This document shows positions 2,206 through 43,886 of a stretch of DNA of 64,000 nt, piece by piece; within the stretch, counting starts at the first letter, position 1; each line of letters opens with the position of its first letter. This DNA is from Coriobacterium glomerans PW2. GTDB taxonomy: Bacteria; Actinomycetota; Coriobacteriia; Coriobacteriales; Coriobacteriaceae. The notes beneath the pieces were generated by a model. It saw nothing but the letters and a program-made list of their open reading frames with translations. It was not told the origin of the DNA and searched no databases. The stretch lies in assembly GCF_000195315.1 (NCBI RefSeq), contig NC_015389.1:372001-436000 (forward strand). Reading direction: 5' to 3'. The position numbers and the translations under genes are program-made.

Positions 2206-3219
2206 ATGCGCGAAAAGAAGATAACGATCAGAGATATCGCCGAACGCTCGGGTGTGTCGCGGGCGACCGTGTCGAGATATCTGAACGGAGGGCACTGGGT
2301 GAGCGGCGAGGCCGCCGCCCGGATCGGCCGGATCATCGACGAGACCGGCTATGTCGCCAACGAGAGCGCACGATCGCTCGCGACCGGACGCTCGAACTGC
2401 ATTGCGTTTCTGCTCGGTGAGCCCCAAGAGCTCCTGTTCGCGGACGCCAACTTCTCGACGCTGCTGAGATCGATCGCCGATGAGCTGGGGCGCAAGGGCA
2501 TGTCGCTGATCATGATGACCACCGACAGCGCCGCCGAGAGCCAGCGCAACATGAGATTTCTGCGCGCGGGACACGTCGACGGCGTGCTGCTCGTGGCCTG
2601 GCACTACGGTGCGCGAAAAGGGCTCATACGAGCCCTGCACGCGCAGGATATGCCCGTCGTGGTCGCCGAGTACCCTGCGACCGAGGCGCGTGCGACGAGC
2701 TACGTGCACGTGGATGACTATCAGGGCGCCGCCGAGGCGACTCGCTACCTCGCCGCGCGCGGAGCACGGCGCATCGCCATGATCGCCGGCCCGAAGGGCC
2801 CGTCCGGTTCGCTCGACCGCGTGCGCGGATACACCGATGCGCTGGCGGAACTGCGCCAAGGACCGCTGCTCGTGGAGCGCGGCGACTACTCGAAGCCGAG
2901 CGGTCGCGTCTGCGCCGCCCGCCTGCTGGATCGCGATCCGTCGATCGACGGGCTCTTCGCGGCCTCGGACGCCATGGCTATCGGGGCGATCCAGGCGCTG
3001 CGAGATCTCGGGCGCGATGTTCCGAGTGACGTTCAGGTCGTCGGCTTCGATGACCAGCAGCTGGCGCAGATCTCAGAGCCTCCGCTCACGACCATGCGCC
3101 AGCCGTTCCAAGAGATCGGCAGACGCATGGTTGACCAGCTCATCGATCTGATTCGCGGCGGAGCGCCGGTGGGAACGACGCTTCCGCTCGAACTCGTGGT
3201 ACGCGGCTCCACCCGGTAG
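2206..3219 (+). CDS. LacI-family transcriptional regulator
   Basis: 337-residue repressor. The N-terminal helix-turn-helix (KKITIRDIAERSGVSRATVS, then RYLNGGHWVSGE) is followed by a periplasmic-binding-protein-like effector domain. The ATG at 2206 is chosen because GAGGAG ends 9 bases upstream and the HTH begins directly after it; an ATG at 2083 would add about 40 unrelated residues and overlap the terminator. It probably senses a sugar and represses the symporter/glycosidase genes upstream. The characteristic C-terminal region VVGFDDQQLAQISEPPLTTM is present. Confidence 0.9.
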   Translation: MREKKITIRDIAERSGVSRATVSRYLNGGHWVSGEAAARIGRIIDETGYVANESARSLATGRSNCIAFLLGEPQELLFADANFSTLLRSIADELGRKGMSLIMMTTDSAAESQRNMRFLRAGHVDGVLLVAWHYGARKGLIRALHAQDMPVVVAEYPATEARATSYVHVDDYQGAAEATRYLAARGARRIAMIAGPKGPSGSLDRVRGYTDALAELRQGPLLVERGDYSKPSGRVCAARLLDRDPSIDGLFAASDAMAIGAIQALRDLGRDVPSDVQVVGFDDQQLAQISEPPLTTMRQPFQEIGRRMVDQLIDLIRGGAPVGTTLPLELVVRGSTR

Positions 3220-12851: not shown

Positions 12852-14628
12852 TACGATCAGCGAGTGCGTGATGCGCGAAGTCTCCTTTCATCAAGGAGTA
12901 AACATCATCGTCGATGCAGAGGACTCGCGAAAGCAAAACAAGGTCGGCAAGACCACGTTTCTGAAGCTGATCGATGTTCTCATGGGGGCAAAGAACCGAA
13001 AGAACGTGTATGCCAATCCCGGAAACGAACAACACGGTTATCAAGCTGAGAGATATCATCACAGAAAAGCTCGTTGCAGCTGAGATGACGCTTGTCGATC
13101 GGCTTGATACCAGAGCTCGGTGTAGAGTTGGCAGAATTGAGTTGAAAGTCGATCTTTTTCCACAAGGCAACTATTACATCAATGGAAAACGGACTCCGCC
13201 CGTCGCGTATCGAGAGTCTCTTAACAGATTTCTGCTTGGTAACGATAGCGATATTCTGACGTTTCGCCAGCTCATCAATTCATTTGTGCGGGTATCGGTC
13301 GAGGGCGACCGCGATGCGTTTCTTCGCACTGTTGAGCGCACCAGCGTTGTTGTCTATCGGAGCGTCTATAACTATCTGTTCGCTATATCGGATCTCGAGC
13401 TTGACAGCAAGCTTGACTCGCTAAATAGTGAGAGAAGCAGAACGATCGAGCCGCTCAAGCGTCACAGGGATGTGCTTGATGTCAATGAAATTGATGAGCA
13501 GCGGCAAGTGCTCGTTGGTCTCGAGCGTGAATACGAGCAGACCAAACAACGCGCGGACGATATCATTGATGCTGGGGAATGCCGCCGCAATCGAAAGGCG
13601 CTTGCAAGGGTGTGCTCGGAATATATGAAGCTGAGCGATACGCTAAGTGAGCTTGATTACCGTATTGAGAAATCCAGTGCAGCCCTTTACCAAGCGCACC
13701 AAGAAAACGCGCGACAGGCGGATATCAGCCTTTCCAGGCGCTTCTTTGATGAGGTGTGTCCCATGATTCCAGAGGTCAAGAAGACGTTTGAGGACATGGT
13801 TCGCTTCAATAGGTCTCTGTGCGACAACACAATCTCATATTGCGAATCGCTTCAGAAGAAACTCGAAGATGAGCGGGTGTCCGTTCTCGCACAGAGAGAT
13901 GGTCTCACAAAGAATAAAACCTTTCTCTCGTTGGTTGCGGATGACAAGATCGATGAATACGAGCACCCTTTATCTGCGCTCATGGATCTGAAGCAGCAGA
14001 TCGGTGAACGAATGGAAGTTATCGCCACGATGGAGAGCTACGACGAGGAGCGCAAACGGATTGATGAAGCGATCGAATCGTATTCGACCGGCGGATCCGC
14101 CCGTACATACGATGAAACTGGTTTTCAGGCAAGGATGGACTTCTTCAACAGCTTTTCCCTCCGCTTGCGGATCGGATAAACGGCGAGAAGCCCATGTTGG
14201 TATATTCGCCAAAGACCAAGGAGTTTCCCGTATCGATCAACGAGCTTCTAGGAACGAGTACGGGGACCAAGAAATCTCTTATCGTCGCGTTTGACCTTGC
14301 ATGCCAGCAGTTCGCGCGCGAGAACGGCATCCGCACGCCGCAATTTACCGTCCACGGTGTGGTCGAGAGCGTCGAGGGCCCCGGCCTGAAGACGATCATC
14401 GATGTTGCGAACAACTGAAGTTTCCAGTATATCGTCGCCGTCCCCAAGGAAAAACTTGATTCCTCGCATTCGTCTGCCGCCGACCAACAGCGACTTCAGA
14501 TCATCCAACTGTCTGATGACGACAGACTGTTTGAGGGTGTGAGCGCCGAGCAAGCAGAAGCTGACCATGCCCCGCAAGAAGAGCGGCCATGTGAATGGTC
14601 AAGGCAGATAGATTCCTCTGTATCATGA
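12823..14628 (+). pseudogene. DUF2326 ABC-3C SMC-like ATPase, three lesions
   Basis: The start MYIKTLRIHNTISECVMREV is preceded by GAGGAGG. The P-loop-like stretch is NKVGKTTFLKLIDVLMG. The middle (13022-14150) is a long coiled coil. The end (GTKKSLIVAFDLACQQFA, TPQFTVHGVVESVEGPGLK, YIVAVPKEKLD) matches DUF2326 proteins. Lesions: a frame change near 13020-13036 (frame 1 to 2), another near 14150-14165 (frame 2 back to 1), and an in-frame TGA at 14416-14418 between IIDVANN and SFQYIVAVP. Conserved sequence continues in the same frame to a TGA at 14626. A+T-richer than its neighbours, suggesting acquisition by transfer followed by decay. Confidence 0.75.
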
Positions 14629-15091
14629 TGAATAAGAGCGATGGACTGCACGTACTTCTTGTGATTTTCTCTCGAGAAGCCGAGCTAAGAGAAGATACAC
14701 ATCTTTTGCCGACGTGGCTGCGTGCAGCGGCTCGATATCAGCATCGGTACATGCTCGGATGGGCTGTCTGGCATGCAGATAGCCAACTCGCTCGGACAAG
14801 AAGAAATCAAGCCGGACATTCGATATCAAGCAGCATACTTGCAGCAACCTCGCTCATGCAGGAGCCGCTTTTCCCTATTTCCCGAGCATGCCGACGCGGT
14901 GCCAGCACTTTTGTGTAGATCAACAATATATGGTATTCTGTACAGCATATTGCACGACCGCTTGTATGCGACATCCACCGGATCGGTGCGCCTCGCAGAC
15001 GCGAATGCACGTCAGGGATGGGAGACGGCCCATGAGATGTCGCTTGAAGAATGAACGCGAACAAGGCGATCGCACTGCCCCCGCCGCGCGA
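14629..15091 (+). other. Intergenic region, no recognisable gene
   Basis: 463 bases between the DUF2326 remnant and the LRR surface gene. Short open frames (for example 110 codons from 14722) have no recognisable domain and no Shine-Dalgarno. The 3' part probably holds the promoter and leader of the LRR gene. The remainder is probably decayed DNA from the same lost island. Confidence 0.5.
14911..14939 (+). promoter_or_regulatory. Possible sigma-70-type promoter for the LRR gene
   Basis: TTGTGT (14911-14916), a 17-base spacer and TATTCT (14934-14939). It lies about 150 bases before the ATG next to the poly-G run. Four of six matches at each element, so weak support. Confidence 0.3.
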
Positions 15092-15095
15092 ATGA
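15051..15095 (+). CDS. 14-codon leader ORF overlapping the LRR start
   Basis: ATG at 15051 reads MNANKAIALPPPRE and stops at TGA 15093-15095, sharing ATGA with the ATG at 15092 that leads into the poly-G run. The four-base overlap is a typical translational coupling arrangement and might explain how the ATG at 15092, which has no Shine-Dalgarno, is used. No evidence that the peptide itself has a role. Confidence 0.3.
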   Translation: MNANKAIALPPPRE

Positions 15096-15105
15096 AGAAA
15101 AACAC

Positions 15106-15116
15106 GGGGGGGGGGG
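15106..15116 (+). repeat. Poly-G run (11 G) at the start of the LRR surface gene
   Basis: Homopolymer of 11 G directly after ATG-AAG-AAA-AAC-AC. With 11 G the ATG at 15092 runs into TAG at 15155. With 9 or 12 G it reads without a stop through a signal peptide into the 867-codon LRR frame. This fits a slipped-strand ON/OFF switch; the copy in this sequence is OFF. Confidence 0.7.
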
Positions 15117-15246
15117 CTTCTCCCGGACCATCCCGCGGCCGCGATCTGATCGCGTAGACCTCCTCGATCGCACCCACCGGGGGACGGGACGTCCCGCCAG
15201 CCGGCATCGGCTGGCCTCCATCGTTCTCTGCGCGGCTCTGACCGCG

Positions 15247-17850
15247 TTGCTTCTCGTCGGCCTGTGCGCGCGAGCAGAGGGCGCCGAAGAACGTGGGCAA
15301 CAGATCCCGCCGAACCAGATAACCGGTAAAAGTCCCGACCGCGCCGCCCCCTTGGACGATGCGGGCCAGAAACCCGCGGCGGTGGGCGACACGTTCTCAT
15401 TTCCCATCAAGGTGGGTACCAAGGCAGAGGTACCGTGCGAATTCAAGGTCACGAGCCCTGACACCGTCCAGGTGGGCAGAGGAACCAGGACGGCTATCTC
15501 ACCGGGCGAATCGGGAGCGGTCGTTCTTCCCTCCACGGTGAGCTCGAACGGCGTGGCGTATCGAGTGACAGCCATCGGAAGCAGTGCTTTCAAGGGCTGT
15601 AGTCTCATCACGACGACGGGTCTGAGGCCTGACGACACCATCACGGAGATCGGTGGTGAGGCCTATCGCAGTTGCGAAGCTCTCACGGAGACGGGGCTCG
15701 CGAACAACCCGAATGTTACGAAGGTCAGCTATTACGCCTTTTTCGGTTGCACCAGCTTGAAGACGACCGGCCTCGGCTCGAACAGAGTTCTCAGCACATT
15801 GGGCGAAGGCATGTTTGCCTCATGTACTGGGCTTGAGCACACCGGACTCGCTACGAATGAGGTCATCACCGATCTCAACGGCGCGTTCAGTGGATGCGAG
15901 GGTCTGATCGAGACCGGCCTCGCTGAAAACAAGACGATAACGAAGCTGACCGGAGGTTGCTTCTACGATGCGACGTCGCTGGTGAGCACGGGGCTCGAGA
16001 GCAACGATCACATAACAGAGCTGGGGAAAAGCGACTTTGCCCACTGCACGAGCCTGAAGACGACCGGGCTCGAGCACAACGTGGTGCAGAAGCTCGGTGA
16101 CTCCACGTTCTGGCAGTGCATCTCCCTGGAGTCAACCGGCTTGGAGACCAACACCAAGATCAAAAAGCTGGAAGATATGGAATTCGACATGTGCGAAAGT
16201 CTCAAGAGCACGGGGCTCGAGTCGAACCAAACAGTCTCCGAGATGGGCAGTTACGTCTTCACCGGTTGCACCTCGCTGCTCTCGACGGGTCTGGAGGCCA
16301 ACGCCACGATTATCGAGATTCCGCAGGAATCGTTTTCGGGTTGCACGGCGCTCACCTCGACCGGGCTCGAGAAGAACCAAACCGTGACGACCCTGTTCTA
16401 CTTCGCGTTCAAGGGCGACACGGCGCTCACCTCGACCGGCCTCACCTGCAACCGCACCGTATCCACCTTTTACTCCGAGGCGTTCTCTGGCTGCACGGCC
16501 CTGGGTATAGCCGATGACGTGACCGGGCAGGCCAACAAGGGCGATCTGGTCCTGAACCAGCCCGACTCCGGAGGCAAGCTCGTCTTGTCGGCCGACCTGT
16601 TCAAGGGATCGGGCTACGCCTCGCTGTATCTCATGTGCGACAAGGACCGGCTGGCCTTTTATCCGGACATGACCTTCTCCGATATCCCGCTCGAGAAGGT
16701 CTACGTTCCCGCCTCGTGGGCGGGCACCGACAGCTGGACCATCTGCGGCAGGACCTTCTCGGTATCCGACGGGACCCTCGTCATCATGGATCCCATCCAG
16801 TCGCTCTCGGTTGATCGAAAGCACATGACCTCGGACGCGGCGACGCTGAGCCTCTCGGCGAACGCGTCCTTCGAGATGGTCCTGTCGGGCGCGAGCTCGG
16901 GGAGCCTCGGCACGTACCGCGTATCCGTCGACGCGGCGGGCGCCCCCCAGCGGGTCAGCGTCGACATCCCCTCCGGATCGGGGCTCGGTCCGGCGGCCGA
17001 CGCGCTCGCCGCGGCGGTCTGCCCCGAGACGCCGGTGGCGTATCCGGCCGGCTCGCGCGGCCGCGGCTACAACGAGTCGACCGGATCCGCGAGCTGCGCG
17101 ATCGCAGCGGTGCGCTACGACGTCAGATTCGATGCCAACGCCGGGGTGGGATCGATCCCGGATGAGGCCATGGCATACGGTCAGAGCAAGAGGCTGAGCG
17201 CGAACGAGAACCTCATAACGAGGGAGAACTATGTGTTCAGCGGCTGGAACGCGAAAGCGGACGGCGGCGGAGACGGCTACGCCGACGGGGAGGCCGTCTC
17301 GAACCTGACGGATCTCGAGGGAGATGTCGTCACGCTGTTCGCCCAGTGGGAATCGGCCGTCTCGCTGCCGCTCGTCATCCACGGCCATGCGCTCGCCGAT
17401 GGCGGCGGGGGAGCGGCGCTTCCGGGCTGCGGCTTCGCGCTGGCCTCGCAGCCGGATGAGGACCACGAGATATACAGCGTCTACACCGACGAGGCCGAGA
17501 CGAAGCTCGTGGAGCGCTGGCCGATGATGACGGATGCGAACGGAGATCTGAATCTCTACGGCCTCTCTCCGGGCACCTATCACATCTTGAACCTGACGGC
17601 GCCGGCGGGCTACCAGCTCATGGCCGAGCCGCACGCCTTCACCGTCTTCGAGGACGGCGGGGTGAGCGTCGACGGCGGCGATCCCGTCAAGCCCGAGGAC
17701 GGGGTCGTCCGCATCGGCGTCGGCTTCGGGATCAATCCGGCTCTGCCCGGCACCGGCGGGCTCGTCCGGCCGCAGCTGGTTGCTCGCGGCGCCGCCGTGC
17801 TGGCGCTGTGGGCCGCGCTGCTCGCCCTCCGCGTGCGGCGCGTCGGCTGA
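15247..17850 (+). CDS. LPXTG-anchored leucine-rich-repeat surface protein, probably phase-variable
   Basis: BspA-like cell-wall protein. In this copy the frame lacks a good start: TTG at 15247 falls inside the signal peptide (LASIVLCAALTALLLVGLC begins upstream in the same open frame), which joins the ATG at 15092 only if the G run has 9 or 12 G. Domains by codon of the listed frame: about 13 repeats of 25 residues (pattern F-x-GCTSL-x-STGLE-N-x-T-I-x-x-L, about 100-425); a Listeria-Bacteroides repeat (VRFDANAGVGSIPDEAMAYG ... GWNAKADGG ... LFAQW, about 625-700); a SpaA/prealbumin-like fold (LYGLSPGTYHILNLTAPAGY); and the sortase signal LPGTGG with a hydrophobic tail and RVRRVG. Likely function is adhesion (inference). 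Confidence 0.85.
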   Translation: MLLVGLCARAEGAEERGQQIPPNQITGKSPDRAAPLDDAGQKPAAVGDTFSFPIKVGTKAEVPCEFKVTSPDTVQVGRGTRTAISPGESGAVVLPSTVSSNGVAYRVTAIGSSAFKGCSLITTTGLRPDDTITEIGGEAYRSCEALTETGLANNPNVTKVSYYAFFGCTSLKTTGLGSNRVLSTLGEGMFASCTGLEHTGLATNEVITDLNGAFSGCEGLIETGLAENKTITKLTGGCFYDATSLVSTGLESNDHITELGKSDFAHCTSLKTTGLEHNVVQKLGDSTFWQCISLESTGLETNTKIKKLEDMEFDMCESLKSTGLESNQTVSEMGSYVFTGCTSLLSTGLEANATIIEIPQESFSGCTALTSTGLEKNQTVTTLFYFAFKGDTALTSTGLTCNRTVSTFYSEAFSGCTALGIADDVTGQANKGDLVLNQPDSGGKLVLSADLFKGSGYASLYLMCDKDRLAFYPDMTFSDIPLEKVYVPASWAGTDSWTICGRTFSVSDGTLVIMDPIQSLSVDRKHMTSDAATLSLSANASFEMVLSGASSGSLGTYRVSVDAAGAPQRVSVDIPSGSGLGPAADALAAAVCPETPVAYPAGSRGRGYNESTGSASCAIAAVRYDVRFDANAGVGSIPDEAMAYGQSKRLSANENLITRENYVFSGWNAKADGGGDGYADGEAVSNLTDLEGDVVTLFAQWESAVSLPLVIHGHALADGGGGAALPGCGFALASQPDEDHEIYSVYTDEAETKLVERWPMMTDANGDLNLYGLSPGTYHILNLTAPAGYQLMAEPHAFTVFEDGGVSVDGGDPVKPEDGVVRIGVGFGINPALPGTGGLVRPQLVARGAAVLALWAALLALRVRRVG

Positions 17851-42931: not shown

Positions 42932-43886
42932 ATGTTTGAGTCGCTCGTTGCCGAGTATCTGGAGCACGACCTTTTCGACCTCGTCGAACGCGAGGCCGGG
43001 TCGCTGGAGCTGCCCGACCGAAGCAGCACAACCTCATCTATGCTATTACGGGCGTCCGCCGGTGCGGTAAGACGTTCTTCATGTTTCAGACCATGCGCAA
43101 GCTCATCGAAGCGGGGTCCCCGCGAATTGATAGTCTCCTTTTTGTTCGATGACGAGCGTATCATGCCCTATCGGGACAGCACGGCTCAGGATCTGCTCGA
43201 CGCCTATTACAACCTTGTGCCGCAGGCGACAGAGGGCTGCTACCTCTTGTTCGATGAGATTCAGGATCTCCCCCGGTGGAGCTCGTTCATTCGGCGCATC
43301 GCAGAGCAGCATCGGGTGTCGATCGTTCTTAGGGGGTCGTCCTCGAGGCTGCCGTCCTCCGATATCCCGAGCGTCTTTCGAGGACGCTCGCTCGCGCGTG
43401 AGATGTGGCCGCTGAGCTTCAAAGAGTACTGCTCCTTCCACGATATCGAACCGCCCCGTTTCTCAGAGACGTACACGAGGCGTGAGCATGAGATCTTCGA
43501 GAAGGCGTTCGACGGCTACCTGGTGTGCGGGGGGGGGGGGGTTCCGGCAGGTCAGGCGCTTCCGCCTCTCGAACGCATGCAGCTTCGCGCCGCTACGGAG
43601 CGAATCGAGAGACAGCGATCGCAAGCTACAGTGCGATGAATTGCCCCGAGGTCGATTTCGTGGTAGGCGATGGGGCCCTCGAGGGCAGTATCGGCTGATT
43701 CAGGTCGCTCTCCATTCCGGAGCTTCGGCCGGCGAAGAGGAGCTCTCCAGGAAGTATCGCAGCGAGGTGGGCAACCTTGAGCGTGCGATGTCGAGATCGG
43801 GGCTGAACGAGGGAGTGCTCATCACCAGAGATGAGCAGGACAGAATCGCCGTGCCATCGGGAACGATTCGCTTGATCCCCGCTTGA
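42932..43886 (+). pseudogene. DUF4143-type AAA ATPase, frameshifted and internally deleted
   Basis: Pieces of a standard ATP-binding/DUF4143 protein in three frames. MFESLVAEYLEHDLFDLVER starts in frame 2. NLIYAITGVRRCGKTFFMFQ (P-loop) is in frame 1 from about 43021. LIVSFLFDDERIMPYRDST to CYLLFDEIQDLPRWS (Walker B-like) returns to frame 2 near 43115. After DGYLVCGG a 13-G run keeps the frame, then roughly 150 codons typical of the family are missing. NCPEVDFVVGDGALEGS precedes a further shift near 43695, after which RLIQVALHSG and the end GTIRLIPA are found. No function expected. Confidence 0.78.
43529..43541 (+). repeat. Poly-G run (13 G) in the ATPase pseudogene
   Basis: Thirteen consecutive G in the coding frame of the DUF4143 remnant, at the place where the family normally has GGFP. 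Second long G homopolymer of the window. Confidence 0.7.

Follow-up and report, generated by a model that had tools for sequence, protein, structure and literature searches.

How is a surface-protein gene expressed when its start codon and its coding body lie in different reading frames? This question arises at a locus in a 64,000-nucleotide window of the Coriobacterium glomerans PW2 genome (NC_015389.1, positions 372,001 to 436,000; coordinates refer to this window unless marked as genome positions or tied to another locus, and all features of the gene are on the plus strand). An ATG at 15092-15094 and the opening codons MKKNT (15092-15105) are followed by a run of 11 G residues (15106-15116), and at this tract length the frame of the ATG closes at a TAG (15155-15157). 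The frame of the body is open already upstream of the run, from 15055 through 17847, and ends with TGA at 17848-17850. By frame logic, one in three tract-length classes links the start to the body and the other two run into an early stop. In the shifted frame alone, the run leads into a basic n-region (15118-15210) and then a signal-peptide hydrophobic core, LASIVLCAALTALLLVGLC (15211-15267). The n-region scores best in this frame among the three forward frames, yet its coding signal is weak: the interval 15118-15246 ranks at the 4th percentile among in-frame windows but scores higher than 97% of those off frame. All these elements had been described in a sequence-only reading of the locus, from the ATG followed by 11 G and the TAG that ends its frame to the stop-free alternative frame and the n-region and core preceding the repeats, and each was recovered here.

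The leucine-rich repeats (LRRs) that the same reading had recognized in the body proved to be of the BspA type (LRR_5, 15556-16512; Pfam PF13306, E 3e-36). They are followed by a Listeria-Bacteroides repeat domain (17116-17301; PF09479, E 7.5e-7) and a SpaA prealbumin-like domain (17404-17667; PF17802, E 2e-9). The C-terminus (17743-17850) has the look of a sortase anchor, with LPGTG (17743-17757), a hydrophobic segment, a basic tail and the TGA; it was identified by eye, the Pfam Gram_pos_anchor model remaining below threshold. Sortase genes are found at 175, 512, 549 and 2070 kb of the genome, with a sub-threshold match at 2101 kb; none adjoins the LRR gene, the nearest being some 125 kb off. 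The next gene encodes a P-type cation ATPase, and the LRR gene does not lead a pilus cluster equipped with a sortase of its own.

The assignment of ATG 15092 as the start codon stood only in part. The tract does follow it in frame, but a scan of anti-Shine-Dalgarno (anti-SD) duplexes found no SD sequence for it (+0.9 kcal/mol). An in-frame ATG at 15032 is preceded at normal spacing by an SD-like GGGAG/GGAG (15021-15034 with the ATG), with a duplex energy of -10.1 kcal/mol, inside the range seen for the window's genes and close to the top 5% among random positions; translation may therefore begin at 15032 rather than at 15092. A 14-codon leader (15051-15095), also noted previously, overlaps ATG 15092 through the sequence ATGA, so that translational coupling could operate as well. 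Since both ATGs enter the tract in the same frame, the logic of the putative switch is unaffected by the choice. A scan of the body frame past the run found no ATG, GTG or TTG before TTG 15247. This codon, rightly judged an implausible start beforehand, is residue 13 of the LASIVLCAALTALLLVGLC core and was rejected; thus no alternative start would yield a secreted product. No consensus promoter was found ahead of the gene, and the only RNA element detected in the window is one tRNA.

Long G runs are a distinctive feature of this genome, a single contig of 2,115,681 bases with a G+C content near 60%, in agreement with published figures for the strain (2.11 Mb, near 60%; PMC3746427). Pattern counts over the complete genome gave 22 G runs of at least 9 (9, 6, 5, 1 and 1 runs of length 9, 10, 11, 12 and 13), against 2-5.5 predicted by Markov models of order 1-5, and 13 of at least 10, against 0-1.5. 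Shorter runs were counted in a 375 kb sample made up of three stretches trimmed to exclude loci already under study. This sample holds 293, 68, 4 and 0 runs of length 5, 6, 7 and 8 and none of 8 or more, which scales to about 1650 G/C runs of length 5, 380 of 6 and 23 of 7 in the genome. Run lengths are thus bimodal, counts dying out by 8 and yet 22 runs reaching at least 9, which sets the long runs apart as a separate class. The window contains 10 G8 matches where 1.4 are expected. By number of G10 matches the genome ranks fifth among 67 genomes of the family, three of the four above it having hundreds. Not all of the tracts are switches, since some are intergenic or lie in pseudogenes or remnants. 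The longest of all, G13 at 43529-43541, is in a gene remnant (about 42934-43886) with AAA ATPase-like features and a DUF4143-like end, apparently frameshifted around the P-loop and probably a pseudogene; its family name derives from motifs, Pfam giving no match for the 3' part.

Where the tracts fall near genes, surface proteins are favored, and the LRR-gene tract is one of several such loci. The genome carries 11 SpaA-domain genes, and in five a same-strand G run lies inside the gene or no more than 700 bp upstream of its 5' end (expected 0.04, P about 1e-9, with the 700 bp limit picked after the data had been seen and with 5' ends only estimated for three of the genes); no listed run is near any of these three. 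The five are the LRR gene (G11) and genes at genome positions 124-127 kb (G10), 986-988 kb (G12), 1187342 (G10) and 547-548.6 kb (G11). The gene at 1187342 (L085; 1184684-1187500, minus strand) encodes a pilin-like LPXTG/SpaA/Cna_B protein and is split by its tract right after the signal peptide, which is in one frame, with 886 codons containing the SpaA and Cna_B domains in another. The SpaH/EbpB-type pilin gene at 547-548.6 kb is a weak case because its G11 forms a hairpin with a C10 past the end of the preceding gene; the near-perfect hairpin spans genome positions 546404-546455 (L081 8405-8456), between an LRR gene and the pilin-sortase locus. Beyond the SpaA family, G10 splits a membrane protein gene at 1477991 (L087; 1476314-1478100, minus strand) close to its start. 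This gene is GT39-like by eye, lies upstream of a PgfS-like GT2 glycosyltransferase gene and may be a case of phase-variable glycosylation. A secreted YDG-domain gene has a G9 about 100 bp upstream.

Given the excess of such runs at surface-gene fronts, the G11 probably toggles the LRR protein through copying slips. The tract, lying between the start (ATG 15032 or 15092) and the signal peptide, would gate the reading frame of an LRR protein with a predicted sortase anchor. Slipped-strand mispairing in replication would alter its length by one base per slip. Two of the three length classes would end early, as at G11 with TAG 15155 (OFF), and the third would connect the start with the signal peptide, the LRRs and LPGTG (ON), leaving the cell population a mixture of expressers and non-expressers. 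We infer slippage at G11, expression of the ON form and an adhesive role in the host gut. That the gene encodes an adhesin turned ON and OFF by slipped-strand mispairing, with the assembly showing the OFF state, had been the central proposal of the sequence-only reading; we consider it likely, on the strength of the anatomy, the bimodal run lengths, the enrichment of tracts at 5' ends, their recurrence in other genes and in relatives, and the variable tract length at a conserved Collinsella-type locus.

The main competing explanation is that the gene is decaying, its original start lost from the N-terminus and the G run incidental, so that no tract length would restore normal expression. Comparison with the LRR paralogues of the same genome provides the chief point in its favor: the weakly coding n-region of the ON form would be about 45-65 residues long, against 14-30 residues before the core in the paralogues. 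The 124-127 kb paralogue, moreover, has an in-frame TGA directly past its signal peptide, and the G13-bearing AAA ATPase remnant also appears frameshifted. Against decay, the 2.7 kb LRR-SpaA-LPGTG frame is intact, stop-free and strong in codon signal, and tracts of this length far exceed chance and cluster at surface-gene fronts. Decay is a distinctly less probable reading than a switch. The paralogues at 540, 543, 735, 1362 and 1485 kb start in the ordinary way and lack a G run at the front; those at 124 and 986 kb have ordinary ATGs with a run roughly 280-305 bp upstream (G10, L076 3381-3390, and G12, L083 3377-3388). A start inside the signal core, sought among the paralogues as counter-evidence, was found in none, their normal starts lying 14-30 residues ahead of the cores. 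The 124 and 986 kb loci have 22 identical bases in common (the run plus CTCCTAGAAAAG) that occur nowhere else in the genome. The idea that a mobile cassette carries the tracts was rejected, as flanks are shared only between these two copies and the LRR gene locus has none in common with other tracts.

Orthologues of the LRR gene, including any with another tract length, were absent from 60 relatives, all of other genera; none was present either in a wider collection of genome contigs, which may omit the window's own genome. Tracts with the same layout do recur in other Coriobacteriaceae at other genes. Among them are a SpaA gene with G11 just ahead of the signal peptide (L115) and a Flp-like prepilin gene with ATG, seven codons and G11, OFF as assembled (L122). 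A G11 also separates the two halves, each in its own frame, of a D12 class adenine DNA methyltransferase (L119, 2675-3555), a candidate phase-variable methyltransferase. In seven species of Collinsella type (the genus name is inferred), a signal-peptidase gene of a pilus region is preceded by a tract whose flanks are conserved, TTTAATGT-Gn-TACNAT (loci L151, L153, L154, L150, L152, L155 and L123). The tract looks like a poly-G promoter spacer, and n is 9, 9, 9, 9, 10, 11 and 13 across the seven. As compared between species, this spread from G9 to G13 shows that a conserved tract has changed in length within the family, at a locus different from the LRR gene. An orthologous membrane-protein locus of Collinsella-type genomes provides weak evidence, for a long G run is found in two species only (G12 and G10), with G4-G5 in the other readable ones. 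Palindromic G20-G40 runs in some drafts were set aside as probable assembly artefacts. It seems an evenly balanced proposition that Coriobacteriaceae, human gut Collinsella as well as a firebug symbiont, harbor a set of poly-G contingency loci so far undescribed that toggle adhesins, pilins, a DNA methyltransferase and genes for glycans, including a conserved, promoter-like variable poly-G before a pilus-type signal-peptidase operon.

The length variation at this comparable locus also bears on whether the protein might be made from G11 DNA with no genomic switch, by transcriptional slippage, ribosomal frameshifting or initiation at a non-canonical codon such as ATC 15130. Homopolymers of at least 8 can act as recoding sites (PMC3711429), and a strong anti-SD match (-10.3 kcal/mol) lies upstream of ATC 15130. 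However, ATC is very rare as a start and the match is the G run itself; replication slippage better fits both the position of tracts at gene fronts and the interspecies length change. We regard expression from G11 DNA as improbable. Least probable of all is an erroneous run length in the deposited sequence, with the gene simply in frame: G runs are hard to sequence, and the G11 of a Bifidobacterium breve reference concealed a 37/60% G11/G12 mix (PMC9187656), but several other genes in this assembly are likewise split by tracts, and an error would itself point to mixed lengths.

Slipped-strand switching is a known mechanism, apparently not described before in Coriobacteriaceae, and the wider interest appears to lie in the family-wide set of tracts. 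The same mechanism has been demonstrated in B. breve, where G11/G12 tracts divide pilus genes in two and both lengths coexist (PMC9187656). The sortase-dependent pilus genes bbr_0113 and bbr_1889 of strain UCC2003, switched ON and OFF by G tracts whose length sets expression (PMC9187656), are the closest precedent. As in the LRR gene, whose LPXTG-type anchor is putative, an LPXTG surface protein of an Actinomycetota member is divided into two ORFs across 11-12 G, the second ORF having no usable start. The two differ in that the Sec signal precedes the tract in B. breve, whereas the signal-peptide core follows it in the LRR gene, and in that the B. breve gene comes first in a pilus operon that includes a sortase of its own, whereas no sortase adjoins the gene of the presumed LRR adhesin; the gene at genome position 1187342 is closer to the B. 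breve layout. The poly-G/poly-C contingency loci of Campylobacter, Neisseria and Mycoplasma agalactiae likewise combine several tracts per genome, a bias for surface and glycosylation genes and single-base frame toggling; these organisms belong to different phyla, and C. glomerans has fewer tracts, known from one genome sequence. With BspA-type surface proteins the LRR gene product has in common LRR_5 repeats, secretion and a presumed adhesin role, but it is actinobacterial, has a SpaA domain and a putative LPGTG anchor, and would be gated by a G tract. The limited literature collection searched contained no description of poly-G phase variation in Coriobacteriia. If the proposed switching is real, phase variation by replication slippage reaches a second gut lineage of Actinomycetota beyond Bifidobacterium, and a vertically transmitted, beneficial insect symbiont as well; surface switching in a mutualist would be testable, since the bacterium can be cultured and the insect kept in the laboratory. 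The Collinsella-type tracts suggest that G-run lengths should be counted when strains of human gut members are typed or their expression is studied.

Upstream of the LRR gene, at 12971-14415, a 402-codon ORF is followed by a 100-codon piece in another frame, with weak similarity to DUF2326; the pair is possibly one frameshifted gene. A further G9 run, at genome position 497012 (L080, near 3013-3021), lies at the edge of an apparent type I-E CRISPR array.
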